Origin: Leucobacter chromiireducens subsp. chromiireducens
GTDB taxonomy: Bacteria; Actinomycetota; Actinomycetes; Actinomycetales; Microbacteriaceae
Length of the DNA: 64,000 bases
NCBI RefSeq assembly: GCF_016758255.1
Contig: NZ_QYAD01000002.1
Span: forward strand, 248,001-312,000
Reading direction: 5' to 3'
Shown here: positions 34,100-51,095 of the stretch, one piece after another
Layout of the letters: every line of letters starts with the position of its first letter
How positions within the stretch are numbered: position 1 is the stretch's first letter
Program-made: the position numbers and the translations under genes
The notes under the pieces: generated by a model
Database searches by the model: none
Seen by the model: only the letters and a program-made list of their open reading frames with translations
Told to the model about the DNA's origin: nothing

Positions 34100-35019
34100 C
34101 CACCATCACGCTTCCCGAACCTCTCCGCGCAGCCATCGCCAAGAACCCAGAATGGGCCGGTCTCGATGTGGCGGTTGACCCGGTATTCGGCGGCATCACC
34201 AACGAAAACTTCCGACTGCGGATCGGCGACAGCCAGCCGATCTTCGCGAAGGTGCCCGGGCTGGGCACCGAGAAGTTCATCAACCGAGACACGGCGAACC
34301 AAGCCGCGCGCCAGGCTGCAGCAGCCGGGATCAGCCCTCAGGTGCTGTTCTACGACGCAAGCAGCGGCATTGAGTTTTCCGAGTTCGTGGCAGATGGGTT
34401 CCGCACTGCGACGACACTCGACTTTCAGCGCGCTGACGTGTGTCGAGGCGTCATGGATACCTACCGTCGTTGGCACGGCACCCCGCTGCTCAGTGAGACC
34501 AAAACCATGGTGGACATGGTCGAGGAACACCTCGCGCAGGTCGAGGAAGACGGGATTCCGCTCCCGGACTGGTCGGCCGATGTGTTGCGCAACTATCGCG
34601 AAGCGGTCGACGCATTCATGGTGTCCGGGCTCGAACTGGTGCCGGCCCACAACGACCCCATGCCCGGCAACTTCCTCATCGATGATGCGGCCAACGTCAC
34701 GCTGATCGACTTCGACTACGCCGCGAACAACGAGGCAAGCTTCGAGATCGGTCTGATCCTCACCGAGATGTTCGTGGACATCGATCGTTCCCGCGAACTT
34801 GTCGCCGAGTACCGCGGCGAGCATGACGAGCGGTTCTTCGCACGCGCCATGCTCTCGCGCATGATCGCCGACACGAAGTGGGGCCTCTGGGGGCTGATCA
34901 ACGCCCACGCGCGCGATGAGGACTTCGACTACTTCAAGTACGGCTCCTGGAAGCTCTATCGCACGTTCTGGATCTCACGGCGACCCGAATACCGGCAGTG
35001 GTTGGACGCGGCCCGCTAA
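34096..35019 (+). CDS. Choline/ethanolamine-kinase-like phosphotransferase
   Basis: The 307-residue protein has an intact choline-kinase/aminoglycoside-phosphotransferase core: the nucleotide loop GGITNENF (32-39), Lys52 in FAKVPG, the catalytic HNDPMPGN (185-192) and the metal-binding IDFDYA (204-209). The family phosphorylates hydroxyl groups of choline, ethanolamine, thiamine, sugars or antibiotics. GGxTNxxF and HNDxxxxN are closest to the choline/ethanolamine branch, so an amino alcohol is a reasonable but unproven substrate. It overlaps the pseudokinase gene by four bases and its stop codon shares a base with the start of the carbamoylase gene. Confidence 0.85.
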   Translation: MTTITLPEPLRAAIAKNPEWAGLDVAVDPVFGGITNENFRLRIGDSQPIFAKVPGLGTEKFINRDTANQAARQAAAAGISPQVLFYDASSGIEFSEFVADGFRTATTLDFQRADVCRGVMDTYRRWHGTPLLSETKTMVDMVEEHLAQVEEDGIPLPDWSADVLRNYREAVDAFMVSGLELVPAHNDPMPGNFLIDDAANVTLIDFDYAANNEASFEIGLILTEMFVDIDRSRELVAEYRGEHDERFFARAMLSRMIADTKWGLWGLINAHARDEDFDYFKYGSWKLYRTFWISRRPEYRQWLDAAR

Positions 35020-36266
35020 TGTCCGAGCAGACCGCCGATGCAGTGCTCCTCCAGCTATTCGACGAGCTCTTCGCAGAGTTCTCGGAGATCGGCCGCGCGA
35101 ATGACACGGGGCTGCACCGTCTCGCGTTCAGCGCGGCCGACGCCGAAGTGCGGGCGGCCTTCCGGGCGCGCTGCGCTGCGCTCGGCTTGCACGCGCACAC
35201 TGACGAGATCGGCAACCAGTTTGCGCTTGCCCGGCCGCCGGTGCCAGGCGACCGCACGGTGCTGCTCGGCTCCCACCTCGACAGCCAGCCCGACGGTGGG
35301 CGATTCGACGGCCAGCTCGGCGTTGCCGCCGCGCTGGCCGTCGTGGCCGAGGCCGCTCACACCGAGGTACCGCAGGGAACAAACCTGGGCGCTGTGAACT
35401 GGGCCAATGAAGAGGGAGCCCGTTTCCAGCCCAGCGTGATGGGAAGCAGCGTGTTCACTGGGCAGCTCTCACTTGCCGAGGCACTCGCCGCGAGCGATGC
35501 AGAGCACACGCTGCTCTCCGATGAGCTGGTGAGCCGCGCACTCGCGGGCACCTCCGCGCTCCCGGCCACTGTCGCCGCCTACGCGGAGCTGCACGTGGAG
35601 CAAGGCGCTCGGCTTGAACGAGACGGTGCCGAGCTCGGAATCGTGGACCGCACCTGGGCCGCTCACAAAGCTGACGTGCGTGTGCACGGGGTACAAACAC
35701 ACACGGGACCGACCCCCATGGCGCTCAGAGTCGATGCGCTCGCGGCTGCCGCGAGACTCATCGCCCTGCTGCGTGAACTCGGGCTCGCGGATCCCGATGA
35801 TCGTCTCCACACCGCAGCGGCGTGGATGCGCATCACTCCGAATTCGCCCAATGCGACGCCGTCGCTCGTCGAGTTCAAAGTGGAACTGCGAAGCCCAGAG
35901 GAGGAGCGGCTACACGCGGCGCGGGCAGCCCTCGTTACAGCGGCGCAAGAGATTGAGCGTGGCACTGGGGTGCAGTGCGACTTCGGCGCGTGGTCAGAAC
36001 GGCGGGCGGCAAGTTTTGATCCCGATCTGGTTGCGCTTGCCACAGCGACCGCAATCTCAATGGGGATCCGCGCACAGCGCATGCCCACGATTGCGGGCCA
36101 CGATGCGGTGATCATGAACGCGGCCGGTGTGCCAACCGTGTTGCTCTTCACGCCCAGCGCGGAGGGCATCACGCATCACGCCGCGGAGTACACCGAACCT
36201 GCTGATCAGCACCGTGGGGTGCGCGCGCTCGCCGCAGTGGCGCGTGCGCTGCTGGCGCGGGTTTAG
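35019..36266 (+). CDS. M20-family Zn-dependent amidohydrolase (N-carbamoyl-amino-acid hydrolase type)
   Basis: The 415-residue enzyme belongs to the hydantoinase/carbamoylase branch of the M20 peptidases. Metal ligands are visible in GSHLDSQPDGGRFDGQLG, WANEEGARF and ELHVEQGARLE, with THTGPTPM in the dimerisation lid and SAEGITHHAAEYT near the C-terminus. Members cleave N-carbamoyl amino acids, ureidopropionate or allantoate to ammonia, carbon dioxide and an amine. Its stop codon overlaps that of the convergent GntR gene. In this operon it would release nitrogen from a ureido compound, which agrees with a urea-type channel for uptake. ATG 35019 overlaps the kinase stop (TAATG), implying translational coupling. 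Confidence 0.9.
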   Translation: MSEQTADAVLLQLFDELFAEFSEIGRANDTGLHRLAFSAADAEVRAAFRARCAALGLHAHTDEIGNQFALARPPVPGDRTVLLGSHLDSQPDGGRFDGQLGVAAALAVVAEAAHTEVPQGTNLGAVNWANEEGARFQPSVMGSSVFTGQLSLAEALAASDAEHTLLSDELVSRALAGTSALPATVAAYAELHVEQGARLERDGAELGIVDRTWAAHKADVRVHGVQTHTGPTPMALRVDALAAAARLIALLRELGLADPDDRLHTAAAWMRITPNSPNATPSLVEFKVELRSPEEERLHAARAALVTAAQEIERGTGVQCDFGAWSERRAASFDPDLVALATATAISMGIRAQRMPTIAGHDAVIMNAAGVPTVLLFTPSAEGITHHAAEYTEPADQHRGVRALAAVARALLARV

Positions 36267-37006
36267 CGCGCCGGCTCAGACGGGTTCGAGAAGAAGCCGC
36301 GGAGCAGCGCGGTGGAGCCCTCGACGTGTTCGAGCATTGCCTCCGCGGCCGAGTCCGGACGGCCGGTGAGGATCGCCGTCACGATTGCCTCGTGCTGCGA
36401 GTTCGAGTGGGCAAGGTTCGGCCGCAGCAGCGGGATCCCGTCAAGCAGCGCGTTGACGCGGGTGCGCAGGTTCGCAACGAGCGGTACCAGGCTGGGCGAG
36501 CCAGAAAGCTCCGCGATCAGCAGGTGCAGGCGCGAGTCGAGGCGCCGGTGCTGCGTATCGTCGGCGGCAGCGCACTCCTCGAGCGCCCGGCCGAGCGACT
36601 GCCGCTCCTCAGCGCTCAACTCGCGCGCAGCGGCCTCGCGCGCGGCGCCGACCTCGAGCACGCGCCGCAGGGGAGCGAGATCCTCCACCTCTTCCGCGCC
36701 GAGGGCAGGTGCGACGACACCGAGGGCCGAATCCCGCGGCAGCTCGTCCACCACGAACGTGCCGCCGTAGCGGCCACGGCGTGACACCACGTAGCCCGCA
36801 TCCGCGAGCGTCGCCAATGCGTCGCGCACGGTGTCCCGACTCACCTTCAGCATGGTCGCCAGCTCGCGCTCGGCAGGGAGCCGCGATCCAGGGCTGATGA
36901 GGCCGAGACGGACCGACTGGAGGAGCCGCTGCATCGTCTCCTCGTACGCGTTCGTGGGCCGCACACCACGAACGAGGAGCTCGAAACCATCGTGTGTCAG
37001 GTCCAT
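36263..37006 (-). CDS. FadR-type GntR transcriptional regulator
   Basis: The 247-residue protein has a GntR winged helix (LPAERELATMLKVSRDTVRD, then ALATLADAGYVVSRRGRYGG) and an all-helical FCD ligand domain (RRVLEVGAAREAAARELSAE and HSNSQHEAIVTAILTGRPDS). FCD regulators respond to carboxylic acids and amino acids, often through a bound metal. It is the last gene of the minus-strand operon synthetase - hydrolase - aldehyde dehydrogenase - SDR, so it is its likely pathway-specific repressor. ATG 37006 follows GAGGAG. Its 3' end overlaps the stop codon of the convergent carbamoylase gene. Confidence 0.93.
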   Translation of the reverse strand: MDLTHDGFELLVRGVRPTNAYEETMQRLLQSVRLGLISPGSRLPAERELATMLKVSRDTVRDALATLADAGYVVSRRGRYGGTFVVDELPRDSALGVVAPALGAEEVEDLAPLRRVLEVGAAREAAARELSAEERQSLGRALEECAAADDTQHRRLDSRLHLLIAELSGSPSLVPLVANLRTRVNALLDGIPLLRPNLAHSNSQHEAIVTAILTGRPDSAAEAMLEHVEGSTALLRGFFSNPSEPAR

Positions 37007-37085
37007 CGAGCTCCTCGTCGGGGTGTGCGGCGCGAACGCACCGGGCCAGCGCGGCCGCGCCGGGTCTCGTAGCGAGTGTACGCGG

Positions 37086-37892
37086 CTAGGAGAGCGGCGT
37101 CGTGTAGGCGCTGCTGATGCCGCCGTCCACGAGGAACGTCGACGCCGTAATGAAGGAGGAGTCGTCGCTCGCGAGGAACGCGACGGATGCGGCGAGCTCC
37201 TCCGGGCGGGCAAAGCGGCCGAGCGGCACATGGACGAGGCGGCGCTCAGCGCGCTCGGGATCGCTCGCGAACAGCTCCTGGAGGAGCGGCGTATTCACCG
37301 GCCCCGGGCAGAGCGCGTTCACGCGGATGCCCTGGCGCGCGAACTGGACGCCGAGCTCACGGGTCATTGCAAGGACGCCGCCCTTCGACGCGGTGTACGA
37401 AATCTGCGAGGTGGCCGAGCCCATCACGGCGACGAACGACGCGGTGTTGATGATCGATCCGCTGCCCTGCTTCGTCATGTGGCGAAGCGCCGCGCGCGAG
37501 CAGAGGTAGACGCTCTTCAGGTTGACGTCCTGCACCTTCTGCCAGGCCGGGAGTTCGGTGGTTTCGATCGAGTCATCGTCGTCGGGGGAGATGCCGGCGT
37601 TGTTGAACGCGATATCGACCGAGCCGTACTCGCGCGCAGCGGTATCGAACAGGTTGTCGACCTGATCCTGGTCGGTGACGTTGACCTGCACGAAGAGGCC
37701 CTCAACGGCCTCGGCAGCGGCCTGGCCGCTCGTGGGATCCATGTCGCCGATGACAATCTTCGCACCCTCGGCGCGCATGCGCTTCGCAGTGGCGAGGCCG
37801 ATCCCGCTGCCGCCGCCGGTGATGACGGCGACCTTGCCGGCAAGACGCTGCGTGAGATCGATGGGGGTGATGTCGCTCATGGTGGTGCTCAT
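37086..37892 (-). CDS. Short-chain dehydrogenase/reductase
   Basis: The 268-residue NAD(P)-dependent enzyme has the cofactor motif TGGGSGIG, the NNAG strand motif, and the catalytic Ser with YTASK. Asp (IGDMD) follows the second strand, which favours NAD over NADP. The substrate is not readable from sequence. Its place in an operon with a gamma-glutamyl-amide synthetase, an aldehyde dehydrogenase and a gamma-glutamyl hydrolase, and the absence of an amine oxidase, suggest it oxidises the alcohol of a gamma-glutamylated amino alcohol to the aldehyde. The start could be 37892 or, four codons later, 37880. Confidence 0.9.
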   Translation of the reverse strand: MSTTMSDITPIDLTQRLAGKVAVITGGGSGIGLATAKRMRAEGAKIVIGDMDPTSGQAAAEAVEGLFVQVNVTDQDQVDNLFDTAAREYGSVDIAFNNAGISPDDDDSIETTELPAWQKVQDVNLKSVYLCSRAALRHMTKQGSGSIINTASFVAVMGSATSQISYTASKGGVLAMTRELGVQFARQGIRVNALCPGPVNTPLLQELFASDPERAERRLVHVPLGRFARPEELAASVAFLASDDSSFITASTFLVDGGISSAYTTPLS

Positions 37893-37943
37893 TTCTCGTG
37901 CAATGCCCGTGTGAGCGGGCGGGAGGAGTGGAAAAGGAAAGGG

Positions 37944-39299
37944 TTATTCGCTTGCGAAGAAGACGTTCTTGGTTTCGGTGAAGTGTTCCGCCGCGTCGGG
38001 CCCCAGCTCGCGGCCGAGTCCTGACTGCTTGAATCCACCGAACGGCGTGGTGTAGCGCACGGAGGAATGCGAATTGACGGAGAGATTGCCGCCCTCGACG
38101 CCGCGGGCCACGCGGATGCCGCGACCGAGATCGCGCGTCCAAATGGACCCGCTGAGCCCGTACTCGGAACTGTTGGCCAGCTGGATCGCGTCGGCCTCGT
38201 CCTCAAACGGCAGCACCGAGACGACGGGGCCGAAGACCTCCTCGGTGGCGATTCGGGATCCGCGCTCGGGTGTCACGACGGTCGGGGCGAACCACGCGCC
38301 CGGGCCGCTCGGGGCGGAGCCCTGGAACGCGACGGGAACGTCGGGGGTCAGGAAACTTGCCACGGAATCGCGGTGCGCGAGCGTGACGAGCGGCCCCACC
38401 TCGGTGGCGTCGTCGGTGGGGTCGCCCACCACGACGTTCTTGACGGCCTGTTCGAACTGCTCCATGAAGCGGTCGTACACGCTGCGCTGAACGAGGAGGC
38501 GGCTGCGTGCGCAGCAATCCTGCCCGGCGTTATCGAACACCGAGTAGGGCGCTGTTGCCGCGGCCCGCTCAATGTCGGCGTCATCGAACACGATGTTGGC
38601 GCTCTTCCCACCAAGTTCGAGCGTGACGCGCTTCACCTGGTCGGCGGCGCCGGCCATGATGCGCTTGCCGACCGCGGTGGAACCGGTGAACACCAGCTTG
38701 CGAACGTCGGGGTGGCTCACAAAGCGCTCACCGACCACCGATCCGCGCCCCGCGAGTACCTGGAACAGGCCCTCGGGAAGCCCTGCCTCGAGCGCCAGCT
38801 CGCCGAGGCGGAGGCTCGTCAGCGGAGTCCACTCGGCAGGCTTCAGTACGACCGCGTTGCCTGCGGCGAGCGCCGGGGCAAAGCCCCACGAGGCGATCGT
38901 CATCGGGAAGTTCCACGGTGTGATGACCCCCACGACGCCGAGCGGCTCGTGGAAGGTGACGTTCATGCCGCCGGCGACCGGGATCTGCTGCCCGATGAGG
39001 CGCTCAGGTGCGCCGGAAGAGTACTCAAGCACGTCGCGCACATGGCCCGCCTCCCAGCGGGACTGCGTGATCGGGTGCCCCGAGTTTGCGGTTTCAAGCT
39101 GGGCGAGGTTCTCGATGTCGGCGTCGACGGCGTCCGCGAAGCGGCGCAGCACGCGAGCCCGATCCGCGGGGGCCACGGCTGCCCACTCGCGCTGCGCACG
39201 CACTGCCGCAGTGATCGCACGGTCGGTACCTTCGACATCGAGGTGCTCAATCTCCTGGATGACGGCCTCGGTCGCCGGGTTGACGAGGGTGGTGCTCAT
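37944..39299 (-). CDS. NAD-dependent aldehyde dehydrogenase
   Basis: The 451-residue protein shows the aldehyde dehydrogenase features GVITPWNFPMTIASWGFAPA, FTGSTAVGKRIM, the catalytic Glu in LELGGKSANIVFDDAD, the catalytic Cys in FDNAGQDCCARSRLL, and EEVFGPVVSVLPFEDE. It converts an aldehyde to a carboxylate with NAD(P). In this operon the predicted substrate is a gamma-glutamyl amino-aldehyde, by analogy with PuuC in putrescine degradation. It overlaps the hydrolase gene upstream by four bases and is followed after 51 bases by the SDR gene. Confidence 0.94.
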   Translation of the reverse strand: MSTTLVNPATEAVIQEIEHLDVEGTDRAITAAVRAQREWAAVAPADRARVLRRFADAVDADIENLAQLETANSGHPITQSRWEAGHVRDVLEYSSGAPERLIGQQIPVAGGMNVTFHEPLGVVGVITPWNFPMTIASWGFAPALAAGNAVVLKPAEWTPLTSLRLGELALEAGLPEGLFQVLAGRGSVVGERFVSHPDVRKLVFTGSTAVGKRIMAGAADQVKRVTLELGGKSANIVFDDADIERAAATAPYSVFDNAGQDCCARSRLLVQRSVYDRFMEQFEQAVKNVVVGDPTDDATEVGPLVTLAHRDSVASFLTPDVPVAFQGSAPSGPGAWFAPTVVTPERGSRIATEEVFGPVVSVLPFEDEADAIQLANSSEYGLSGSIWTRDLGRGIRVARGVEGGNLSVNSHSSVRYTTPFGGFKQSGLGRELGPDAAEHFTETKNVFFASE

Positions 39300-40099
39300 G
39301 ACTGCTCCCTGGGTTCTGCGTCGGGGGTCTGGGATCGGGCGGTGCGATAGTCGCGCGCCGCGCTGACGAGGCCGGCGAAGAGGCGCCGATCCTGCTCGTT
39401 CTCTTCGGGGTGCCACTGCACGGCGATCCCGAAGGGGTGATCAGCGAGTTCGATGGATTCGGGGATCCCGTCGGCCGTGCGGCTCGTCACGGTGAGGCCC
39501 TCGCCAATCTCGCCAATTCCCTGGTGGTGGTACAGGTGGGCGCGTGCGCCCCGATCATCGCCGAGCACCTCGGCGATGCGGCTGCCCGCGTCCACTTCGA
39601 CATCGATTGGGTTGAAGACTCCGCCCCCAATTTGGTAGCGATCGTCGCCCACCACATCGGGGAGGTGCTGGATCAGGTTGCCGCCGCGCTCGACGTTGAG
39701 GAGCTGCGCACCCCGGCAAATACCGAGGAACGGAAGCTCAATCGCAAGGGCTGCATCGAGCAGCGCGGCCTCGAAGTCATCGCGATCGCTGCGCGGCGCT
39801 CCGGTGCGATCATGGGCGTCCTGCCCGTATCGCGCGGGATCGATGTCTGCGCCGCCCGAAAGGATGATCCCATCGAGGCGCGAAACGATCGCCTCGGCGA
39901 CCTCAGCGGATGCGGGCTGCGGGGGCAGGACCACAACGATCCCGCCAGCGTCGGTGACGGCCTTGATGTAGACCTGCGGGAGGAATGAAGCTCGCACATC
40001 CCACACGCCCGTCTGGGCCTGCTCAAGGTAGCTCGTGATGCCAATGATCGGCGCGTGCTCGCCGCGCTGCTGCGGTGTCTTAGAGGCGTTCAAAGCCAC
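39296..40099 (-). CDS. Gamma-glutamyl-amide hydrolase (PuuD-like, peptidase C26)
   Basis: The 267-residue class-I glutamine-amidotransferase-fold protein has the nucleophile Cys in FLGICRGAQLLNVERGG and the His/Glu pair in QWHPEEN. ILSGGADIDPARYG is characteristic of the PuuD group, which hydrolyses gamma-glutamyl-GABA and related gamma-glutamyl amides to glutamate and the free amino acid. It lacks a synthetase partner domain, so it is a hydrolase and not a biosynthetic amidotransferase. GTG 40099 lies inside the end of the synthetase gene (20-base overlap) and follows GGAGAGG at a good distance, so the two are translationally coupled. Confidence 0.9.
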   Translation of the reverse strand: MALNASKTPQQRGEHAPIIGITSYLEQAQTGVWDVRASFLPQVYIKAVTDAGGIVVVLPPQPASAEVAEAIVSRLDGIILSGGADIDPARYGQDAHDRTGAPRSDRDDFEAALLDAALAIELPFLGICRGAQLLNVERGGNLIQHLPDVVGDDRYQIGGGVFNPIDVEVDAGSRIAEVLGDDRGARAHLYHHQGIGEIGEGLTVTSRTADGIPESIELADHPFGIAVQWHPEENEQDRRLFAGLVSAARDYRTARSQTPDAEPREQS

Positions 40100-41450
40100 G
40101 GATCCTCTCCCAATCGGTGACCGCAGCGTCGTAGGCGGCAACCTCGACGCGTGCGGCGTGCGTGTAGTGATCGACCACTTCGTCTCCGAAGACTTCGCGT
40201 GCGAGTGCCGACTGCTCGAACAGGTCAGCGGCCTCGCGCAGCGTGGTGGGCACGCGGGCGATGTCGCTCGTGTACGCATTGCCGCTGAGCGGATCGCCGA
40301 GCTCGAGCTTCTGCTCAATGCCGTAGAGCCCGGACGCGAGCATGCCGGCGACGGCAAGGTACTGGTTCACGTCGCCGCCGGGGACGCGGTTCTCCACGCG
40401 AATCCCGCCACCGTGGCCCACGACCCGCAGCGCGCACGTGCGGTTATCGTGGCCCCACGCAACGGCGGTCGGGGCGAAGCTGCCGTCCACGAAGCGCTTG
40501 TAGGAGTTGATGTTCGGGGCGTAGAGCAAGGTGAACTCGCGAAGGGCCGCGAGCTGGCCGGCAATGAAGTGGCGGAACATCGGCGACATGCCATCGGCCG
40601 CACTCGGATCGGAGAACGCCGGGGTCCCATCGCTGCCCCACAGGCTCGCGTGCACGTGGCAGCTGTTGCCCTCGCGCTCGTTGAACTTCGCCATGAAGGT
40701 GATGCTCTTGTCGTGCGCCGCCGCGATCTCCTTGGAACCGCTCTTGTAGATCGAGTGGTTGTCGCACGTCGGGATCGCGTGGGCGTAGCGGAACGAGATC
40801 TCCTGCTGGCCGAGATTGCACTCGCCCTTGACGCCCTCGCAGTACATTCCCGCGTCGTCCATCGAATTGCGAATGTCGCGGAGGAGGGGCTCCAGGCGGG
40901 TGGATCCCTGGAGAGCGTAGTCGGTGTTGTAATCCGAACCCGGAACCAGGTCGCGGTAGCCCTTCCGCCAGGCCGTGCGGTAATCGTCGTCGAACACGAT
41001 GAACTCGAGTTCGGTACCAACGAACGGGACGAGATCGTGCTCTGCGAGGCGTTCCACCTGGCGCTGCAGCACGCGGCGCGGGGAGACGTCGATGGGGGAG
41101 CGGTCGCTCGCTCGCGTGAGATCGGCGATGACGAGCGCGGTCCCGGGAAGCCAGGGGATCCGGCGCAGTGTCGAGAGATCCGGCACCATGGCCATATCCC
41201 CGTAGCCGCTCTCCCAGCTCGTGAGCGCATACCCGTCAACCGTGTTGAGCTCGACATCGACGGCGAGGAGGTAATTGCAGCATTCTGCCGCTCCATCCAT
41301 CGTGTCCTCGAGGAAGAGGCGAGCCGAGATGCGCTTCCCCACGAGCCGACCCTGCATGTCCGTGAAGGCCACGATCACCGTGTCGATTTCGCGGGTTGCG
41401 ACGGCCTCGCGCAGTTCGTCCGGTGTCAAGTTGCCGCTCGCGGGAATCAT
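40080..41450 (-). CDS. Gamma-glutamyl-amine (ethanolamide/polyamine) synthetase of the glutamine synthetase family
   Basis: The 456-residue protein is a type-I-like glutamine synthetase homologue: FVGTELEFIVFD, CEGVKGECNLGQQEISFRYA (metal and glutamate sites), NSCHVHASLW with the ATP-site His, FVDGSFAPTAVAWG and NRVPGGDVNQYLAVAG. The adenylylation-site loop of GlnA is not recognisable. PuuA in enteric bacteria and GlnA3/GlnA4 in Streptomyces are of this kind and join glutamate to putrescine, polyamines or ethanolamine using ATP. It leads the operon with a gamma-glutamyl hydrolase, aldehyde dehydrogenase and SDR, and faces an ethanolamine-permease-like gene. AGGAGCACAC precedes the ATG at 41450. 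Ethanolamine is my preferred substrate by context. Confidence 0.9.
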   Translation of the reverse strand: MIPASGNLTPDELREAVATREIDTVIVAFTDMQGRLVGKRISARLFLEDTMDGAAECCNYLLAVDVELNTVDGYALTSWESGYGDMAMVPDLSTLRRIPWLPGTALVIADLTRASDRSPIDVSPRRVLQRQVERLAEHDLVPFVGTELEFIVFDDDYRTAWRKGYRDLVPGSDYNTDYALQGSTRLEPLLRDIRNSMDDAGMYCEGVKGECNLGQQEISFRYAHAIPTCDNHSIYKSGSKEIAAAHDKSITFMAKFNEREGNSCHVHASLWGSDGTPAFSDPSAADGMSPMFRHFIAGQLAALREFTLLYAPNINSYKRFVDGSFAPTAVAWGHDNRTCALRVVGHGGGIRVENRVPGGDVNQYLAVAGMLASGLYGIEQKLELGDPLSGNAYTSDIARVPTTLREAADLFEQSALAREVFGDEVVDHYTHAARVEVAAYDAAVTDWERIRGFERL

Positions 41451-41514
41451 GTGTGCTCCTTGCTGCTCATCATCGAGTGTTGGGGTGCGGGCCAGGTGAC
41501 GCCACTTCGCGTCC

Positions 41515-41564
41515 AATGGTCTGCCTGTAGGCCATTAAAGCACAGTGCTCGGTCGGCGCCGCAA
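41515..41564 (-). promoter_or_regulatory. Putative promoter and operator of the synthetase operon
   Basis: On the minus strand TTGCGG (41564-41559) and TTTAAT (41539-41534) are spaced 19 bases apart. An imperfect 22-bp inverted repeat, AATGGTCT-N6-AGGCCATT (41515-41536, 7 of 8 pairs), covers the expected start of transcription, where a FadR-type repressor could act. This is in the 338-base interval between the divergent synthetase and permease genes. Confidence 0.45.
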
Positions 41565-41677
41565 GTCCCTTGCCTGAACTCTATCGAGGTTCGGCACGCA
41601 CTTCCATGTGTTCTTGACGATGTTTTGGGGTATCAGGGCGCGGAATTTCGCCCCTGTGCGTGAATGGGGCAAAAATA

Positions 41678-41713
41678 AAAGGTTGTTGCAAACGACCTTT
41701 AGGTGGGTATAGT
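41678..41713 (+). promoter_or_regulatory. Permease promoter with overlapping inverted repeat
   Basis: TTGCAA (41686-41691) and TATAGT (41708-41713) form a -35/-10 pair with a 16-base spacer. AAAGGTTGTT-GCA-AACGACCTTT (41678-41700, 9 of 10 pairs) covers the -35 element and is a probable repressor site, perhaps for the FadR-type regulator at the end of the divergent operon. Confidence 0.6.
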
Positions 41714-41788
41714 CATCGTGTCATCCCACCAAACCGCGAGGGCCGCTGTGCGGCGGCCGCGATCGCTCACAATGAAGTGAAAGGGGTC

Positions 41789-43342
41789 ATGATGGCCAAA
41801 GACACACTCAAGGTCTCGGGGGTTACCTACACCACCGCCGAGTCCGGCTATTTCGAGAAACGACAACTGAAACGATCCGCCGGGATCTGGGGTCTCTGGG
41901 GGCTCGCGGTCGGCGCAGTGATCTCGGGCAATTTCTCGGGGTGGAACTTCGGGATCGAGGCCGCAGGATTCGGTGGCATGATGATCGCCTTCGCGATCCT
42001 CGTTGTCATGTATTACGGCCTCGTGTTCTCCATTGGTGAGATGGCCGCAGCGATGCCGCACACCGGTGGTGCCTACTCCTTCGGTCGGGCCGCCATGGGC
42101 CCGTGGGGTGGGTTCGTGACCGGCCTTGCGGAGTCGATCGAGTATGTTGCGACCACCGCGGTGATCGTCTACTTCTCGGCGGGCTACGCGAACGGTGTCA
42201 CGGAGGGCCTGATGGGCTTCTCACTGCCGACCTGGGTGTGGTGGATCATTCTCTATGTCGCGTTCGTGGGGCTGAACACCGCTGGCGCTTCGATCTCGCT
42301 GAAGTTCGCGGTCATCGTCTCGTTCGTCTCGATCGGCGTGCTCGTCCTCTTCGGAACGATGGCGCTCTTGAGTGGCTCCGTCGACTGGGGCAGCCTCTTC
42401 AACATCGAGCCGGATCCCGGACAGACGGCCTTCCTACCGCACGGCGTGCTGCCGATTCTCTTCGCGCTGCCATTCGCGATGTGGCTGTTCCTCGGCATTG
42501 AGGAGCTGCCACTTGCAGCCGAGGAGTCGCACAACCCCGTTCGTGATATCCCGCGCGCCGGCCTCTGGGCACGTGGCACCCTGATCGTCACGGGTCTCCT
42601 CGTGCTCTTCCTGAACACCGCGGTGCTCGGCGCGGAGGCGACCGGAACCGCGGGTGAGCCGCTGCTCGACGGCTTCCGTGCGATCCTCGGCGAAGACCTC
42701 GCGTGGGTGGCCGGCCTGCTCGCACTGTTTGCGCTCTTCGGCCTGCTGGCCTCGCTGCAGGGCATCATGTTTGCGTACGGGCGCAACCTCTACTCCCTGT
42801 CTCGGGCCGGGTACTACCCGAAGTTCCTGTCGCTCACCGGTAAGCGCCAGACGCCCTGGGTGGCGCTCATCGCGGGTGCGCTCATCGGCTTCACCGCACT
42901 CATTGTGGTCGACCTCACGGGTGGCGACGGCGGCGTAGGTGGCGCGGTGGTGCTCAACATCGCCGTCTGGGGTGCGGTCGTTGCGTACTTCATGCAGATG
43001 CTGTCGTTCCTCATCCTGCGCAAGAAGTTCCCGAACGCGAAGCGGCCGTATCGGAGCCCCTGGGGTCTCTTTGGGGCAGCCGCTGCCGCGGTCATCTCGG
43101 CGCTGATCTTCTTGGGCTTCCTGCTCAACGAGACGTTCCGTCCCGCGATCGTCGCGGTCGCGATTGTGTACGCCATTGGGCTCATCATCTTCGGCGTATA
43201 CACCCGCCACCGGCTGATTCTGTCGCCCGAGGAGGAGTACGCCGTCTCGGGTGGCCTGCACGGCGACCCGCAGGCGGAGGGCTACGGCGGCGAGGTCGAA
43301 GAGGAACTGCTCGCGCTCGACGGCAGGGACGCCGACAAGTAG
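41789..43342 (+). CDS. APC-family amino acid/amine permease, ethanolamine-permease-like
   Basis: The 517-residue protein has twelve or more membrane segments. Its N-terminal part, LKRSAGIWGLWGLAVGAVIS followed by GNFSGWNFGIEAAGFGGM and MAAAMPHTGGAYSFGRAAMG, resembles ethanolamine permeases of the APC superfamily more than GABA or putrescine permeases. It is divergent from the gamma-glutamyl-amine synthetase operon and separated from the glycine-cleavage operon by a terminator. The expected role is proton- or gradient-driven uptake of the amine that the synthetase glutamylates. AAGGGG precedes tandem ATG codons at 41789 and 41792. The acidic tail at the C-terminus (EVEEELLALDGRDAD) is cytoplasmic by prediction. 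Confidence 0.88.
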   Translation: MMAKDTLKVSGVTYTTAESGYFEKRQLKRSAGIWGLWGLAVGAVISGNFSGWNFGIEAAGFGGMMIAFAILVVMYYGLVFSIGEMAAAMPHTGGAYSFGRAAMGPWGGFVTGLAESIEYVATTAVIVYFSAGYANGVTEGLMGFSLPTWVWWIILYVAFVGLNTAGASISLKFAVIVSFVSIGVLVLFGTMALLSGSVDWGSLFNIEPDPGQTAFLPHGVLPILFALPFAMWLFLGIEELPLAAEESHNPVRDIPRAGLWARGTLIVTGLLVLFLNTAVLGAEATGTAGEPLLDGFRAILGEDLAWVAGLLALFALFGLLASLQGIMFAYGRNLYSLSRAGYYPKFLSLTGKRQTPWVALIAGALIGFTALIVVDLTGGDGGVGGAVVLNIAVWGAVVAYFMQMLSFLILRKKFPNAKRPYRSPWGLFGAAAAAVISALIFLGFLLNETFRPAIVAVAIVYAIGLIIFGVYTRHRLILSPEEEYAVSGGLHGDPQAEGYGGEVEEELLALDGRDADK

Positions 43343-43414
43343 TCGCGCCTCAGGCGGGCCTGCCGATCTCGGCCGTCCGCCACTCGCGCCCCGCACGCCG
43401 GGGGAGGTTCCCGG

Positions 43415-43454
43415 CCCGAGGGCAGTCTTCTCACGTGGGAAGGCTGCCCTCGGG
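43415..43454 (+). terminator. Hairpin terminator after the permease gene
   Basis: CCCGAGGGCAG (43415-43425) pairs with CTGCCCTCGGG (43444-43454), with partial pairing inside the loop. It lies 72 bases after the permease stop and before the riboswitch. The interval 43343-43827 otherwise holds only the riboswitch leader. Confidence 0.75.
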
Positions 43455-43574
43455 GTGGCACGCTCCCCTCGGCGAGGCGTGCAATAGTTCCCAAATCGCG
43501 CAGCTTCGCGACACGCTCCCGCACGGGGCGCGCGGGCTGCTATGGTGAGACCCAGTTACGAATATCGGCCAACA

Positions 43575-43790
43575 AGCTGTAGCGGGAGAGTCCGGGTGGC
43601 ACGCAAGTGCGAGCCCGGCGCCGTAGGAGCAAACCCTCCCCGGGAATCTCTCAGGCACCCGTACCGCTGCAGCGCGGCAACTCTGGAAAGTAGTCGGTCC
43701 TTCCGGCTCACCGACGGTGCAAGGGCGCCCGATCTCGATCGGAGTGCCTGAATCTCTCAGGTTCCGTAACAGAGCGGGGAGGATCCATCC
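43575..43790 (+). ncRNA. Tandem glycine riboswitch upstream of gcvP
   Basis: The leader contains the conserved glycine-aptamer elements twice. The first aptamer runs from GCGGGAGAGTCC (from about 43583) to CGGGAATCTCTCAGGCAC (about 43641-43658), with GCCGTAGGAGCAAACC between them. The second ends with GTGCCTGAATCTCTCAGGTT (43744-43763) and then CAGAGCGGGGAGGATCC. CTCTGGAAAG links the two. The element precedes the glycine cleavage operon, where such riboswitches normally switch expression on when glycine is high. The exact ends are approximate; the expression platform probably overlaps the region up to the TTG start at 43828. Confidence 0.93.
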
Positions 43791-43827
43791 GGTGCGTTTC
43801 GGCGTACACCCATCTACGGAGATCCTC

Positions 43828-46677
43828 TTGAGCATTAGTTCGCAACCCACTGTTTTCGCAGATCGTCACATCGGCGTCACCACGCCCGCTGACATCTCCG
43901 CGATGCTCGATACGCTTGGCTACTCGAGCGTTGACTCGCTCGTTGACACGGCAGTCCCCTCGGACATCCGCATGTCTGGCACGCTCGACCTTCCCGCGGC
44001 ACGCAGCGAGGAGGAGATCCTCGCCGATCTGCGCGCGCTCGCAGCAAAGAACGTGCTGAAGACGCAGATGATCGGGCAGGGATTCGCGGACACGTACACT
44101 CCGCCCGTGATTCGCCGCAACGTGCTCGAGAGCCCCGCCTGGTACACGGCGTACACTCCGTACCAGCCGGAGATCTCGCAGGGCCGCCTCGAGGCGCTGC
44201 TCAACTTCCAGACCATGGTGGCGGACCTCACCGGCCTCGCCGTGGCGAACGCCTCGATGCTCGACGAGTCGTCTTCCGCCGCCGAGGCCGTGCTCCTCAT
44301 GCGCCGCGCGGGGAAGGCTCCCGCCACCGCGCGCGTGGTGGTTGACCAGAACGTGTTCCCGCAGACGATCGCCGTGATTGAGGGCCGGGCAGAGGCGCTC
44401 GACTTCGAGGTTGAGGTGGCAGATCTGACCGCGGGGCTCCCCGAGGGCGAGATCTTCGGCATCGTGCTGCAGCAGCCCGGCAATGATGGATCAGTGCGGA
44501 ATCAGTCCGAGCTGATCGCGGCCGCACACGAGCGCGGTGCAATGGTCACGGTGATCGCTGACCTGCTCTCGCTCACGCTCATCACCTCGCCGGGTGAACA
44601 GGGCGCCGACGTTGCGGTGGGCAACACCCAGCGATTCGGTGTGCCGCTCTTCTTCGGTGGACCGCACGCCGCGTATCTCGCAATTCGCGCCGGTCTCGAG
44701 CGCTCGCTGCCCGGCCGCCTCGTTGGCGTCTCCAAGGATTCGGCCGGCGATCCCGCATACCGCCTGACGCTCCAGACCCGCGAGCAGCACATCCGCCGGG
44801 AGAAGGCGACGAGCAACATCTGCACCGCCCAGGCGCTCCTCGCGATCACCGCCTCGATGTACGCGGTCTACCACGGCCCCACCGGCCTGCGCGCGATCGC
44901 CGAGCGCGCACACGCACACGCCCGCACGATCGCGCAGTCGCTTGCCGCCGCCGGGATCCCGCTCGCCGCTGAGTCGTTCTTCGACACGGTCGTGGCGAGC
45001 GTGCCGGGCCGCGCCGATGAGATCATCGCTCGCGCGTGCGACGCGGGGATCAACCTCCGCCGCCTCGACGCCGACACCGTGGGCATCTCGACCTCTGAGA
45101 CGACCACGCCCGAGCACGTCGCCGCGGTTGCCGAGGCATTCGGCGCGACGCCCGCAGCGGCGGTCGCCCCCGGTGAGCTCGGCTTCGTCGCCGAACTCAC
45201 CCGCACGAGCGACTACCTCACGCACCCGATCTTCAACACGATGCGTTCCGAGACGCAGATGCTGCGCTACCTCCGCCGCCTCGCCGACCGCGATCTTGCG
45301 CTCGACCGCACCATGATCCCGCTCGGATCTTGCACGATGAAGCTCAACTCGACCGCTGAGATGGAGTCGATCTCCTGGCCCGAATTCGCGGGCATCCACC
45401 CCTACGTGCCGGAGGATCAGAGCCGCGGCTGGCGTGAACTCATCGCCGATCTCGAGCGCCGCCTCGTCGAGATCACGGGCTACTCCGGGATCTCGCTGCA
45501 GCCGAACTCGGGCGCGCAGGGCGAGTACGCGGGCCTCCTCGCGATCCGCGGGTACCACCGCGCGAACGGCGACACACAGCGCACCGTCTGCCTCATTCCC
45601 GCGTCGGCTCACGGCACGAACGCAGCGTCGGCAGTGCTCGCTGGCATGCGCGTCATTGTGATCAAGAACACCGACACCGGTGCGATCGACCTCGACGACC
45701 TGCGAGCGAAGGTCGAGGCGAACCGCGACGAGCTCGCGGCGATCATGATCACGTACCCCTCGACCTACGGGCTGTACGACGCCGACGTCCGCGAGGTGTG
45801 TGAGCTCGTGCACGAGGCAGGTGGCCAGGTGTACATCGACGGCGCGAACATGAACGCGCTCGTGGGGCTCGCGCAGCCCGGCAAGTTTGGCGGCGATGTG
45901 TCGCACCTGAACCTGCACAAGACGTTCGCGATCCCGCACGGCGGTGGCGGCCCCGGCGTTGGCCCGATTGGTGTCGCCGAGCACCTGCTGCCTTACGTGC
46001 CGAGCGACCCCACCGGCACCTACTCGGTGAGTGACGGCGTCCCGGTTGTTGCGACGCTCTTCGGCTCAGCGGGCGTGCTGCCGATCTCGTTCGCGTACAT
46101 CGCGATGATGGGCGCCGACGGGCTCACCCGTGCGACGAAGACCGCGCTGCTCAGCGCAAACTACATCGCGGCGCGGCTCACCGAGTACTTCCCCGTGCTC
46201 TTCACGGGCGAGGCCGGACTTGTTGCCCACGAGTGCATTCTTGACCTCCGCGAACTCACCGCGCAGTCGGGCGTGACCGCTGAGGACGTGGCGAAGCGTC
46301 TCATCGACTTTGGTTTCCACGCACCGACGCTTGCGTTCCCGGTTGCGGGCACGCTGATGGTGGAGCCCACGGAGTCGGAGGATCTCGATGAGATCGAGCG
46401 CTTCATCGAGGCGATGATCACGATTCGCGCTGAGATCGCGGAGATCATCGACGGCGCGGTTGAGCTCGAGGCGTCCGTGCTGCGCAACGCCCCGCACACC
46501 GCACGCGTGGTCGCAGGCGATGCGTGGGATCGCGCGTACAGCCGCGAGCAGGCCGCGTACGCGGTGCCCGCGCTGCGGCACGACAAGTACTTCCCGCCGG
46601 TGGGCCGGATCGACGGTGCCTTCGGCGACCGCAACCTGGTCTGCTCCTGCCCGGCACCCGAAGCGTTCGAGAACTAG
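43828..46677 (+). CDS. gcvP: Glycine dehydrogenase (decarboxylating), P-protein
   Basis: GcvP decarboxylates glycine with PLP and passes the aminomethyl group to the lipoyl arm of GcvH. The 949-residue single-chain form is seen: N-terminal half with [38 protein letters not shown] and [20 protein letters not shown], and C-terminal half with [17 protein letters not shown] and the PLP-lysine region [20 protein letters not shown] chose the TTG at 43828 because GGAG lies six bases upstream and the protein then begins at the conserved N-terminus; a GTG at 43792 lies in the riboswitch tail. It heads the operon gcvP-gcvT-gcvH-glyA. Confidence 0.97.
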
Positions 46678-46691
46678 ACGAGGAGCACCCG

Positions 46692-47807
46692 ATGACGAGC
46701 ACGCCCCGACACACCACCCTGCATCCTGAGCACGCCGAATTGGGCGCATCGTTCACCGACTTTGGCGGCTGGGATATGCCGCTGAAGTACGGTTCCGAGC
46801 TTGCCGAACACCGCGCCGTGCGCGAGGCGGCCGGCCTCTTCGACCTCTCCCACATGGGTGAGATTCGCGTGAGCGGCCCCGACGCGGCAGCGTTTCTCAA
46901 CACGGCGCTGGTGGGTAACCTTGCGGTTGTCGCCGTGGGCCGCGCGAAGTACTCGCTGATCTGCGACGCAGACGGCGGGATCATCGACGACCTGATCACC
47001 TATCGGCTCGGCGACGAGGAGTTCCTCGTGGTGCCGAACGCCGGAAATGCGCCGACCGTCGCAGCAGAGTTCGCGGCGCGCGCCGCGGGCTTCGACGTGA
47101 CGATCGTCGACGAGTCTGCCGACACGAGCCTCATTGCGGTGCAGGGGCCTGCCTCCGTGGCGATCCTGCACCAGCTGGTGCCTGCCGAGCAGCACGGCGT
47201 CGTGACCAACATGAAGTACTACTCGGCCGCTCCGGTGACAGTTGCCGGGCTCGAGGTGCTGCTCGCTCGCACGGGCTACACCGGCGAGGATGGTTTCGAA
47301 CTCTACGTGCCGAACGCCTCGGCGGCAGAGCTCTGGCGCGCGCTGCTTGGAGCGGGCGAGGGCCACGGCCTGATCCCCGCTGGGCTTGCCGCGCGCGACT
47401 CGCTCCGTCTCGAAGCCGGCATGCCGCTCTACGGCAACGAGCTCAGCCGCGACATCACGCCGTTCGAGGCCGGGCTTGGCCCCGTCGTCTCGTTCAAGAA
47501 GGACGAACAGTTCGTCGGTCGTGCGGCGCTCGAGGCGCGGCGCGAGGCCGCGCCGACTCGCGTGCTCGTCGGTCTCGTCGGCGCAGGGCGTCGCGCAGGA
47601 CGCGCGGGGTACCCCGTGCTCGCGGGAGAGCAGCAGATCGGTGAGGTGACGAGCGGTCAGCCGTCGCCCACTCTCGGATATCCGATCGCGCTCGCCTCGA
47701 TCGATCCCGCGTACGCGGAACCGGGCACGGAGCTGAGCGTCGACCTGCGCGGCAAGCCGGAGACATTCACGGTCGTGAAGACTCCGTTTTACCGCCGCGC
47801 GCAGTAG
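46692..47807 (+). CDS. gcvT: Aminomethyltransferase, T-protein
   Basis: GcvT releases ammonia from the aminomethyl-lipoyl intermediate on GcvH and transfers the one-carbon unit to tetrahydrofolate. The 371-residue protein shows the N-terminus [20 protein letters not shown], then [30 protein letters not shown] and [17 protein letters not shown], all features of the folate-binding family. The ATG at 46692 follows GAGGAGCACCC. It starts 14 bases after gcvP. The length is typical. Confidence 0.97.
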
Positions 47808-47878
47808 CTCTCTCGCGCGGAGTTCCGCGCACTTTTCACACGTCACACAGCATCACCCCAACAGGTAAAGGACACATC

Positions 47879-48256
47879 ATGAGCAAGGTTCAGACCGGAC
47901 TGCAGTACTCCGCCGAGCACGAGTGGATCACTGACGAGTCGCCCGCGACGATCGGCGTCAGCGAGGTCGCCGCTGACGCACTCGGCGAGGTCGTCTACGT
48001 TGACCTCCCCGCCATTGGTGCGACCGTCACCGCGGGCGACTCCTGCGGCGAGATCGAGTCGACGAAGTCGGTCTCCGAGATCTACTCGCCCGTCTCCGGC
48101 GAGGTCGTCGAGGTCAACCAGGCCGTCATCGACGACCCGGCACTCGTCAACTCGGATCCCTACGGGGCCGCGTGGCTGTTCAAGGTCAACGTGACCGAGT
48201 TCGGCCCGCTGCTCAGCGCTGAGCAGTACGCCGCCGACAACGGGGCAGAGTTGTGA
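47879..48256 (+). CDS. gcvH: Glycine cleavage system H-protein
   Basis: The 125-residue carrier has the lipoylation-site context [14 protein letters not shown], whose lysine carries the lipoyl arm that shuttles between the P, T and L proteins. The N-terminal [20 protein letters not shown] and the C-terminal [11 protein letters not shown] are family hallmarks. The L-protein (dihydrolipoamide dehydrogenase) is not in this window and is presumably shared with other complexes. AAAGGACACATC precedes the ATG. It overlaps glyA by four bases. Confidence 0.97.
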
Positions 48257-49575
48257 CCCGTTTCACGCCGATTCCCGCGGCGTCGCTCAATACCCCCATC
48301 GCCGAGCTCGATCCCGAGGTGGCCGCGCGCATCGATGCCGAGCTCGCGCGTCAGCGCCGCGGGCTCGAGATGATCGCCTCGGAGAACCACACCGCGGTCG
48401 CGGTCATGCAGGCCCAGGGCTCGGTGCTCACGAACAAGTACGCCGAGGGCTACCCGGGGCGCCGCTACTACGGCGGTTGCGAAGAGGTCGACGTCATCGA
48501 GACGCTCGCCATCGAGCGCGTGAAGGCACTCTTCGGTGCGGAGTTCGCGAATGTGCAGCCTCACTCGGGTGCGCAGGCGAACGCCGCGGTGATGCACGCG
48601 CTGATCCGCCCGGGCGACACGATCCTCGGCCTCAACCTGGCACACGGCGGTCACCTGACGCACGGCATGAAGATCAACTTCTCCGGTCGCCTCTACGATG
48701 TCGCCGCGTACGGTGTCGACGAGACGACGCTGCGGGTCGACATGGACGAGGTGGCGCGCCTCGCCCGCGAGCACCAGCCCAAGCTGATCATCGCCGGGTG
48801 GAGCGCCTACCCGCGCCGCCTGGACTTCGAGCGCTTCCGCGAGATCGCTGACGAGGTCGGGGCCTACTTGATGGTGGACATGGCCCACTTCGCTGGCCTG
48901 GTCGCTGCCGGGCTGCACCCGAATCCGGTGCCGCACGCGCACGTGACGACCTCCACGACGCACAAGACCCTCGCCGGGCCGCGCGGCGGGATCATCCTGT
49001 CGAACGATCCCGAGATCGCAAAAAAGATCAACTCCGCGGTCTTCCCGGGGCAGCAGGGTGGTCCGCTGGAGCACGTCATCGCGGGCAAGGCTGTCGCGTT
49101 TGGCGTTGCGGCGACGCCGGAGTTCGCTGAGCGCCAGCAGCGCACGGTGATGGGTGCGCGAATCCTCGCGGAGCGCCTGGTGCGCGAAGACGTGACCGAG
49201 CGCGGCATCAGTGTGCTCACGGGCGGCACTGATGTGCACCTCGTGCTCGTCGACCTGCGCGGCTCGGAGCTTGACGGCCAGGCCGCCGAGGACCTGCTCG
49301 CCGCGGTGGAGATCACGGTCAACCGCAACGCGGTGCCCTTTGATCCTCGCCCGCCGATGGTGACGAGCGGCCTGCGCATCGGCACGCCCGCGCTCGCCAC
49401 GCGTGGCTTCGGTGAAGCCGCGTTTGCTGAGGTCGCCGACATCATTGCGGAGACCCTCATCGCCGGAACCGCCGAGGGCGGGGCCGACCCGGCCGTGCTC
49501 GCCGCGCTCCGCGCCCGCGTAGACGTGCTCGCGGCCGAGCACCCGCTCTACCCGGACCTCGCTCCGCTCAGCTAG
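48253..49575 (+). CDS. glyA: Serine hydroxymethyltransferase
   Basis: GlyA interconverts glycine plus 5,10-methylene-THF and serine plus THF with PLP. The 440-residue protein carries [55 protein letters not shown], and the PLP-lysine motif [18 protein letters not shown]. The GTG start at 48253 overlaps the gcvH stop by four bases, which couples the two. Placed after gcvPTH it can use the one-carbon unit from one glycine to convert a second glycine to serine. An intrinsic hairpin follows. Confidence 0.97.
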
Positions 49576-49591
49576 CGGGACGAATCACACA

Positions 49592-49625
49592 CTCCCACCG
49601 GGTGCCTGCCCGCACCCGGTGGGAG
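49592..49625 (+). terminator. Hairpin between glyA and sdaA
   Basis: A perfect 14-bp stem (49592-49605 with 49612-49625) with a 6-base loop lies between glyA and sdaA. There is no long U-tract, so it may be a partial terminator that lowers sdaA expression relative to the gcv genes. Confidence 0.75.
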
Positions 49626-49652
49626 CCTCACTCACGTATCGCAGGAGGCAAC

Positions 49653-51095
49653 GTGGCCATCAGCGTCTTCGACCTGTTTTCGGTCGGCATCGGGCCCTCG
49701 AGCTCGCACACCGTCGGTCCCATGCGGGCCGCTCACCGCTTCGCAGCGCACTTGCGCGAGAGTGGGATCCTGGCCGCTGCCGCCGGACTTCGCGTCGACC
49801 TCTACGGTTCGCTCGCCGCGACGGGTCACGGCCACGGCACACTCACGGCCGTGCTGCTGGGCCTCGAAGGTTGCGACCCCGAGACCGTGCTGCCTGAGGA
49901 GGTTAATGCGGCGCTCGCGCGTATTGAGCGCGACGGCACCGTCCTCCTCGGCGAACGACTCACTCCCGTGCCCGGGAACGCATCTGGTGCGCCCGCGATT
50001 CCTTTCCGGGCGTCGGACATCGTGCTGCGCCCGCTCACCGTGCTGCCCACGCACACGAACGGCATGAAGCTCGGAGTCACCGACACGGCGGGGGAGCTGT
50101 TGCTCGAAGAGACCTACTTCTCAGTGGGCGGCGGCTTCATTGTGCGCGAGGGGGCCGAGGAGCGCGTGCAGGATCAGCTCGAGTCCACGCTCGCTGAGCT
50201 GCCGTACCCGTTCACGACCGCCGCGGAGCTGTTGCGGTATTCGGAGGAGACCGGCCTCTCGCTCGCGGGCCTCATGCTCGAGAACGAGAAGACGCACCGC
50301 AGCGAGGCGGAAGTGCGCGATGCGCTCTGCCACATCTGGGACGTGATGGAGGCCTGCAAGGACTCCGCGCTGCAGCGCACGGGTGTGCTCCCGGGCGGGC
50401 TCAACGTGCGTCGACGCGCACCCGAGTGGCACCGCCGACTCAGTGAGCAGGATCCACACCGTGATCCCGTGTACTGGCAGGAGTGGATCAACCTCGTTGC
50501 GCTCGCCGTGAACGAGGAGAACGCGTCGGGCGGCCGCGTGGTCACGGCCCCCACCAACGGCGCTGCCGGCATCATCCCGGCGGTGCTCTTCTACGCCACG
50601 CACTACGCACCGGGCGCCGCCAGCTGGACTTCCGAGGAGAAGCGTCGCGCCATCGCCGACTTCCTCCTCGCGGCGGGCGCGGTCGGGGTGCTCTATAAAG
50701 AGCAGGCCTCGATCTCGGGCGCCGAGGTGGGCTGCCAAGGCGAGGTGGGATCCGCTTCCTCAATGGCGGCGGCCGGCCTTGCGCAGGTGCTCGGCGGCAC
50801 TCCGCAGCAGGTGGAGAACGCCGCGGAGATCGCGATGGAGCACAACTTGGGCCTCACCTGCGACCCGATCGGCGGGCTCGTGCAGATCCCATGCATCGAG
50901 CGCAACGCGATCGCAGCGTCGAAGGCCGTCAACGCGGCAAAGATGGCGCTGATGGGCGACGGGACCCACCACGTGACACTTGATGAGGTGATCGCGACCA
51001 TGCGCGAAACCGGTCGCGACATGAGCGAAAAGTACAAGGAGACCGCGATGGGCGGCCTCGCGGTGAGCGTCTCGGTCGGAGTAGTCGAGTGTTGA
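49653..51095 (+). CDS. sdaA: L-serine ammonia-lyase, iron-sulfur type
   Basis: SdaA deaminates L-serine to pyruvate and ammonia using a 4Fe-4S cluster. The 480-residue single-chain form begins [20 protein letters not shown] with the substrate-binding SSSHT. Later it shows [14 protein letters not shown], the cluster cysteines in [15 protein letters not shown] and [17 protein letters not shown], and the C-terminal [19 protein letters not shown]. The GTG at 49653 follows AGGAGG at the right distance. Its place after gcvPTH-glyA gives a direct route glycine to serine to pyruvate. Confidence 0.96.

Follow-up and report, generated by a model that had tools for sequence, protein, structure and literature searches.

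A probable GlnA4-type ethanolamine gamma-glutamylation pathway feeding riboswitch-led glycine catabolism in Leucobacter chromiireducens

We analysed a stretch of 64,000 nucleotides from Leucobacter chromiireducens subsp. chromiireducens (contig NZ_QYAD01000002.1, positions 248,001 to 312,000; the whole stretch is called the window here), in which a locus at 36263-51095 very probably encodes a GlnA4-type ethanolamine gamma-glutamylation pathway that feeds riboswitch-led glycine catabolism. The pathway itself is a known one in its actinobacterial form, which we read as coupled time and again to glycine catabolism. What was observed directly comprises the genes, the orthology with the glnA4 cluster of the literature, the catalytic motifs, the riboswitch and the recurrent linkage to glycine genes. 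A ligase resembling glutamine synthetase (GS), a C26 hydrolase, an aldehyde dehydrogenase (ALDH), a short-chain dehydrogenase (SDR) and a FadR-type regulator form an operon on the minus strand, and an APC permease diverges from it on the plus strand. The permease is followed on the plus strand by tandem glycine aptamers and then by gcvP-gcvT-gcvH-glyA-sdaA (43804-51095). All gene families, their order and their coordinates, as given in an original prediction made from the DNA letters, were borne out by open reading frames (ORFs), profile matches and aptamer scores:

36263-37021, minus strand: FadR-type (GntR/FCD) regulator; Pfam GntR and FCD; start codon approximate
37086-37892, minus strand: SDR; NCBIfam NF004713, 493 bits against a cut-off of 404; YxxxK and TGxxxGxG motifs
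37944-39302, minus strand: ALDH; PF00171; GQDC and ELGGK motifs
39296-40069, minus strand: C26 (PuuD-like) hydrolase; PF07722, 192.6 bits; GICRG and WHPE motifs
40080-41450, minus strand: GS-like ligase, GlnA4-type; PF00120
41780-43342, plus strand: APC permease; TIGR00908, 325.6 bits, below the cut-off of 381.75
43573-43676 and 43677-43782, plus strand: tandem glycine riboswitch; RF00504, 62.0 and 45.2 bits, both above the gathering score of 32 bits
43804-46677, plus strand: gcvP, glycine dehydrogenase (decarboxylating); TIGR00461, 1280 bits, cut-off 859; start approximate
46689-47807, plus strand: gcvT; TIGR00528, 354 bits, cut-off 236
47879-48256, plus strand: gcvH; NF002270, 146.5 bits, cut-off 117
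48253-49575, plus strand: glyA, serine hydroxymethyltransferase; NF000586, 604.6 bits, cut-off 335
49656-51095, plus strand: sdaA, L-serine ammonia-lyase; TIGR00720, 642.9 bits, cut-off 345

The GlnA4-type ligase and the pathway enzymes

The window ligase is orthologous to Streptomyces GlnA4 and is predicted to be a gamma-glutamylethanolamide synthetase. As a stand-in for the S. coelicolor sequence, published primers for SCO1612, SCO1613 and SCO1614 were placed on seven of the 16 loci of family f6, called Streptomyces-like here on the strength of the primer matches. The reverse primer of SCO1613 (glnA4) falls within the ligase gene with 0-1 mismatches in all seven loci, and the forward primer has 0-2 mismatches in five and 4 in L081, its best site in L078 (4 mismatches) lying outside the gene; in L079 both primers match the ligase gene with 0 mismatches. 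The SCO1612 reverse primer lies in the ALDH gene of all seven loci (0-1 mismatches), its forward partner having 5 mismatches in L079 and 6, at another place, in L078. The SCO1614 forward primer is found in the FadR gene of all seven (1-4 mismatches) and the reverse primer has 1-2 mismatches in six, with 5 at another place in L078. By sequence, the window regulator is the counterpart of the Streptomyces glnA4-cluster regulator EpuRI (SCO1614).

The window ligase is 61-66% identical to the Streptomyces-like ligases and is predicted to adopt a GS fold, the solved structures nearest to it being 11zs and Csal_0679 of Chromohalobacter salexigens (5dm3). All 13 GlnA4 residues checked, namely the metal, glutamate and nucleotide ligands and the Phe that replaces the Glu flap, are present, with a numbering offset of 9 up to H276 and of 6 thereafter. 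GlnA4 R348 thus corresponds to R342 of the window ligase, which is invariant in alignment A2; a motif search had picked a nearby Arg, R337. The cut-offs of the GlnA, PuuA and type III GS models are all missed, the PuuA model scoring 197 of 650 bits. A 50-row tree, in which bootstrapping had not fully settled, the PuuA branch is saturated and the root is unsure, places the window ligase inside the actinobacterial GlnA4 radiation; 11zs and 5dm3 fall into a group next to this one, and PuuA is a distant outlier. Ligases 58-60% identical to that of the window were also seen in Nitrococcus and a gammaproteobacterium (L162, L165, L193, L199). Three of them (L162, L193, L199) nest among actinobacterial ligases in the tree, which suggests transfer; in L193 only a 35% ALDH stands beside the ligase and the SDR was not found.

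The other pathway genes were counted in 40 loci of the window's family and in 61 loci of the phylum with at least 50% ligase identity; a further set of named genomes was not drawn at random but holds the best 80 of at least 588 relatives. SDR, ALDH and C26 hydrolase are each present in 40/40 family loci and in 60, 59 and 52 of the 61 phylum loci, and the SDR is found in 72 of the 80 named loci, where contig ends truncate several. The permease lies within 10 kb of the ligase in 36/40 family loci and is divergent from it in 34. The SDR motif YxxxK is kept in 170/170 sequences, the ALDH motifs GQxC and ELGGK in 165/165 and 162/165, and the C26 patterns GxCRG (nucleophile) and WHPE/WNPE in 121/155 and 146/155. 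The profile matched by the SDR, NF004713, bears only the name "3-oxoacyl-ACP reductase". Ligase clusters without a detected close ALDH were observed in Pseudonocardia (L170, L182, L233), where the ligases stand near a PF01633-like kinase with 28-30% identity to window 34096-35019 and near a GcvT-domain match, which in L182 lies inside an 864-aa ORF that may be dimethylglycine-dehydrogenase-like.

In the proposed route, the APC permease would import ethanolamine and the ligase would convert it to gamma-glutamylethanolamide. The SDR, as the proposed gamma-glutamylethanolamide dehydrogenase, would oxidise the alcohol to the aldehyde, the ALDH would convert this gamma-glutamylaminoacetaldehyde to gamma-glutamylglycine, and the C26 protein, as the proposed gamma-glutamylglycine hydrolase, would release glycine and glutamate, the FadR-type protein presumably controlling the operon. 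Glycine would then act via the tandem riboswitch on gcv expression, GcvPTH would split glycine, GlyA would form serine from glycine and a one-carbon unit, and SdaA would turn serine into pyruvate and ammonia. For this organism, all substrates, the response of the riboswitch and the regulation are predicted from sequence and from comparison with described systems.

The closest described system is that of S. coelicolor, for which the passages available of Krysenko et al. 2019 report GlnA4 activity, a growth defect of the mutant on ethanolamine and induction by ethanolamine (PMC6529630). In their scheme gamma-glutamylethanolamide is oxidised by SCO1611 and then SCO1612, and gamma-glutamylglycine is hydrolysed to glycine and glutamate; their Fig. 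2 cluster holds a short-chain dehydrogenase, an aldehyde dehydrogenase, glnA4, a regulator, a transporter and a glutamine amidotransferase. This gene set stands all together in the window. The likeness to SCO1610-SCO1615 comprises a ligase, an ALDH and a FadR-type regulator that primer matches show to be orthologous, the clustering with an SDR, a permease and an amidotransferase-type gene, and the proposed route to glycine and glutamate; SDR and C26 homologs also stand in the Streptomyces-like clusters. In contrast to the window, where hydrolase and regulator lie downstream in the ligase operon, both are divergent in the Streptomyces-like loci, and no gcv linkage was counted there (0/16 f6, 0/9 Streptomycetaceae). 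The original prediction had regarded the SDR step as new. According to the same passages, both this step and the whole route were proposed in 2019 with the SDR in the published cluster, so the novelty has to be given up.

An earlier in silico proposal of ethanolamine glutamylation, made for Chromohalobacter, is cited in the available part of PMC6529630, an induced ethanolamine glutamylation operon is described for Phaeobacter in that of PMC10132767, and a 2022 review, as far as its passages go, gives the same route (PMC9397018). These operons share with the window the four proposed chemical steps and a related ligase (5dm3, Csal_0679), and differ in enzyme families. For the C. salexigens steps the review passages list PF00465 (iron-dependent dehydrogenase) and PF05013 (formylglutamate amidohydrolase), whereas steps two and four in the window fall to a PF13561/PF00106 SDR and a PF07722 C26 hydrolase, and the Phaeobacter passages name a TRAP transporter in place of an APC permease.

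With the E. coli Puu system the locus shares the logic of glutamylation; PuuA, PuuC and PuuD align at 30%, 40% and 30% with its ligase, ALDH and C26 hydrolase and are remote homologs of them. A classical Puu-type polyamine pathway is nevertheless extremely improbable and was rejected, because the PuuA, PuuC and PuuD family cut-offs are all widely missed (the PuuD model gives the C26 hydrolase 104.5 of 266 bits) and because PuuB, the FAD (flavin adenine dinucleotide) oxidase of that system, has no match nearby. E. coli PuuB found no match by tblastn in window 32-54 kb, the only part of the genome that this search covered, and one partial match among 200 loci, at the edge of L037. An alcohol and not an amine would be oxidised in the window, and the presence of an SDR where Puu has PuuB, as originally predicted, holds throughout the family and in all but one of the 61 phylum loci. 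The eut (ammonia-lyase) route was rejected as well: eutB (PF06751) gave 0 matches in the window genome, with control matches present in E. coli.

Linkage to glycine and serine genes

A locus was called linked if gcv, glyA or sdaA lies within about 10 kb of a GlnA4-type ligase. The 162 loci counted exclude the window, ligases below 50% identity and unlinked loci with less than 6 kb on either side. Not counted as links were GcvT-domain matches of 29-36% in L124 and the three Pseudonocardia loci L170, L182 and L233, and a 47% glyA match in L080, which is Streptomyces-like and lacks both SDR and ALDH. By this definition 35/162 loci are linked: 14/16 in Streptosporangiaceae, 7/18 in Pseudonocardiaceae, 6/7 in f20 (which we take for Rubrobacteraceae), 4/40 in the window's family, 1/4 in f54, and the single loci of named Rubrobacteraceae, Thermomonosporaceae and f76 (1/1 each). 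The linkage is thus found in at least six families, and the gene orders differ. Prauserella and most Amycolatopsis loci carry gcvP-gcvT-gcvH-glyA, Nonomuraea, Herbidospora, Sphaerisporangium and others gcvT-gcvH-sdaA, Actinomadura gcvT-gcvH-glyA-sdaA, and Actinocrispum glyA-sdaA. The f20 module is a split gcvPA-gcvPB-gcvT-gcvH behind a cysteine-synthase-like gene, and in L129 gcvT-gcvPA-gcvPB precedes the C26 gene, which thereby stands beyond the gcv genes.

The strongest single case is Prauserella L180, in which one strand reads ligase, C26, ALDH, SDR, riboswitch, gcvP-gcvT-gcvH-glyA and FadR, while FadR directly follows the SDR in relatives without gcv (e.g. L163, L169, L183, L235). The glycine genes lie on the ligase strand in 31/35 linked loci, the four exceptions being those of the window's family, and the nearest pathway gene is at most 500 bases away in 19/35. 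The linkage state changes 11 times on a 207-row tree and 8 times on the 50-row tree; these counts are independent of the root and do not separate gains from losses.

Twenty control stretches of 20 kb, taken 0.2-0.5 Mb away in the same genomes, contained gcv, glyA or sdaA in 0/20 cases. At the ligases of the same genomes the count was 8/20, in a sample enriched for linkage, five of its genomes being from f20. Around ligases below 50% identity 0/19 loci were linked. The recurrence in unrelated lineages and the empty control regions support the functional link to gcv, glyA and sdaA that had been predicted, and recurrent linkage to glycine-consuming genes supports glycine as the end product. Together with the orthology to glnA4 it also sustains the predicted ethanolamine route ending in glycine.

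A glycine aptamer was found in 18/19 scanned gcv/glyA-linked loci, each time in the interval that separates the pathway genes from the first gcv or glyA gene, and in none of eight scanned unlinked loci (L037 and seven others). As this riboswitch accompanies gcv genes generally, its presence is evidence on the module and not on the linkage itself. The window resembles other glycine-riboswitch gcv operons in its tandem RF00504 ahead of the gcv genes and differs from them in adjoining a glycine-producing catabolic operon. No second glycine aptamer was found in the window genome among the 150 of 299 candidates that were scored.

As a separate observation, a cysteine-synthase-family enzyme of the pyridoxal-phosphate type usually stands directly after the SDR, ahead of any gcv genes, in loci of the f20/Rubrobacteraceae type (L110, L112-L117, L159, L160). 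It lies 4.8 kb off in L117, falls below the CysK cut-offs in L114, and may indicate a serine or sulfur link.

Evidence against coupling and the window's own family

Several findings weigh against a coupled ethanolamine pathway. Linkage is lacking at 127/162 loci, with none in f6 (0/16), Streptomycetaceae (0/9) and f7 (0/12), nor in Nocardiaceae (0/8), Kribbellaceae (0/5) and smaller groups, and linked loci are related to one another within families. The original prediction had named orthologous clusters without SDR and gcv genes and with an amine oxidase as evidence to the contrary; most clusters indeed lack gcv (in the family 36/40), and they keep the SDR and show no amine oxidase nearby. Gaps of more than 500 bases occur at 16 of the 35 linked loci, 15 of them longer than 1 kb, two unrelated peptidase genes separate the ligase cluster from the glycine genes in L185, the link of L121 consists of gcvH only, 3.8 kb off, and neither L129, with its split gcv, nor L053, with sdaA alone, has an RF00504 match. 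The gcv genes of the window and of its three gcv-linked relatives are opposite in strand to the ligase, so that two transcripts are likely; in L035 the gap between ligase cluster and gcv genes is filled by an unrelated FtsK-type gene. G014, from the window's own clade, is unlinked, its gcvP lying about 2 Mb away, and this clade has a gcvP that differs from those of the other family members searched, so the pairing here may stem from an arrival of the gcv module. The permease is related to the ethanolamine permease model TIGR00908 yet remains below its cut-off. In a 5-mer palindrome scan upstream of the ligase, the 37 sequences of the window family shared no operator palindrome, and the f7 and Pseudonocardiaceae/Kribbella sets likewise had none in common; a shared one was present in 9/16 Streptomyces-like and 4/12 Streptosporangiaceae loci.

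The permease score and the lack of gcv linkage at most loci could be explained if the operon serves a different amine (putrescine, isopropylamine, alaninol or some other amino alcohol), the nearness of gcv being coincidental; GS-like ligases do differ in their choice of amine. We consider this very unlikely, as the window ligase is orthologous to S. coelicolor glnA4 and scores low with the PuuA model, PuuB is matched only at the L037 edge in the 200 loci and the window region together, and the link with glycine and serine genes recurs.

Ethanolamine as substrate is also compatible with a gcv module that is a housekeeping glycine operon, landed nearby in this clade without functional coupling. 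Such a chance neighbourhood is unlikely, though a better contender than another amine, and it draws its strength from the window's own family, where linkage taken alone would be weak. There, gcv genes are near the ligase in only 3/40 loci (L035, L036, L038), all in the window's five-row clade, and the fourth linked locus, L053, has sdaA alone, in the place of the permease. A gcvP search of 80 family genomes (listed positions) found gcvP less than 7 kb from the ligase on its contig only in the genomes of L035, L036 and L038; the next in distance lies some 42 kb off, and where ligase and gcvP sit on separate contigs, as many pairs do, distance is not measurable. The window genome has one gcvP by genome search. 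Within the clade gcvP is 78-82% identical, against 71% to G017 and at most 64% to other family members searched, an identity gap larger than that of the ligase, which suggests from sequence a separate ancestry of the clade's gcv module and perhaps its separate arrival. The module also has a riboswitch of its own. Against an uncoupled module speak the recurrence of the same riboswitch-led module in other families, the embedding of gcv genes within the operon in Prauserella and L129, and the control regions without any such gene.

Two further observations concern gcvP copies of this clade. The copy beside the ligase cluster of L036 (G208:C4:8937-11819) has one in-frame TGA and is either a broken gene or a sequence error, and G121 holds two window-type copies (C2:815752-818610 and C2:1325948-1328809), only one of which adjoins the ligase cluster.

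Around the locus, a promoter and terminator scan gave results near chance. Adjoining the operon, window 32055-36266 (plus strand) encodes a urea transporter, a protein without family match, a PF01633 choline/ethanolamine-kinase-family protein and an M20 hydantoinase/carbamoylase-type amidase, for none of which a homolog was detected close to the ligase in any of the 40 family loci. An MFS transporter at 51123-52517 (plus strand) follows sdaA, as does one in the same place in L036 (78%), and may be part of the unit.

A feed-forward circuit from ethanolamine to pyruvate

Returning to the coupled pathway, we favour, with some reserve, the idea that a glycine-cleavage or serine-deaminase module headed by a riboswitch has repeatedly joined ethanolamine glutamylation operons of Actinomycetota. 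This would create a feed-forward circuit in which glycine, made by the pathway, turns on its own further breakdown. No report of a coupling of ethanolamine glutamylation to gcv was found in the open literature searched, subscription papers lying outside that search. Nor did a literature search for the M. tuberculosis cluster Rv2857c-Rv2860c bring up a paper with a title on that subject. As far as the available passages show, the final steps of the ethanolamine route in actinobacteria are predicted ones, and the recurrent docking of glycine-sensing and glycine-consuming modules is independent genomic evidence for glycine as the product. Two of the four steps are assigned to enzyme families unlike those listed for the counterpart in Chromohalobacter, a difference that transferred annotation would overlook.

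If the feed-forward circuit is real, ethanolamine would supply one-carbon and pyruvate metabolism, beyond its role as a source of nitrogen. According to the available passages of PMC6529630, old reports found ethanolamine carbon in glycine, serine and alanine in mycobacteria. For carbon reaching these amino acids, the circuit would offer an explanation that does not involve glyoxylate.

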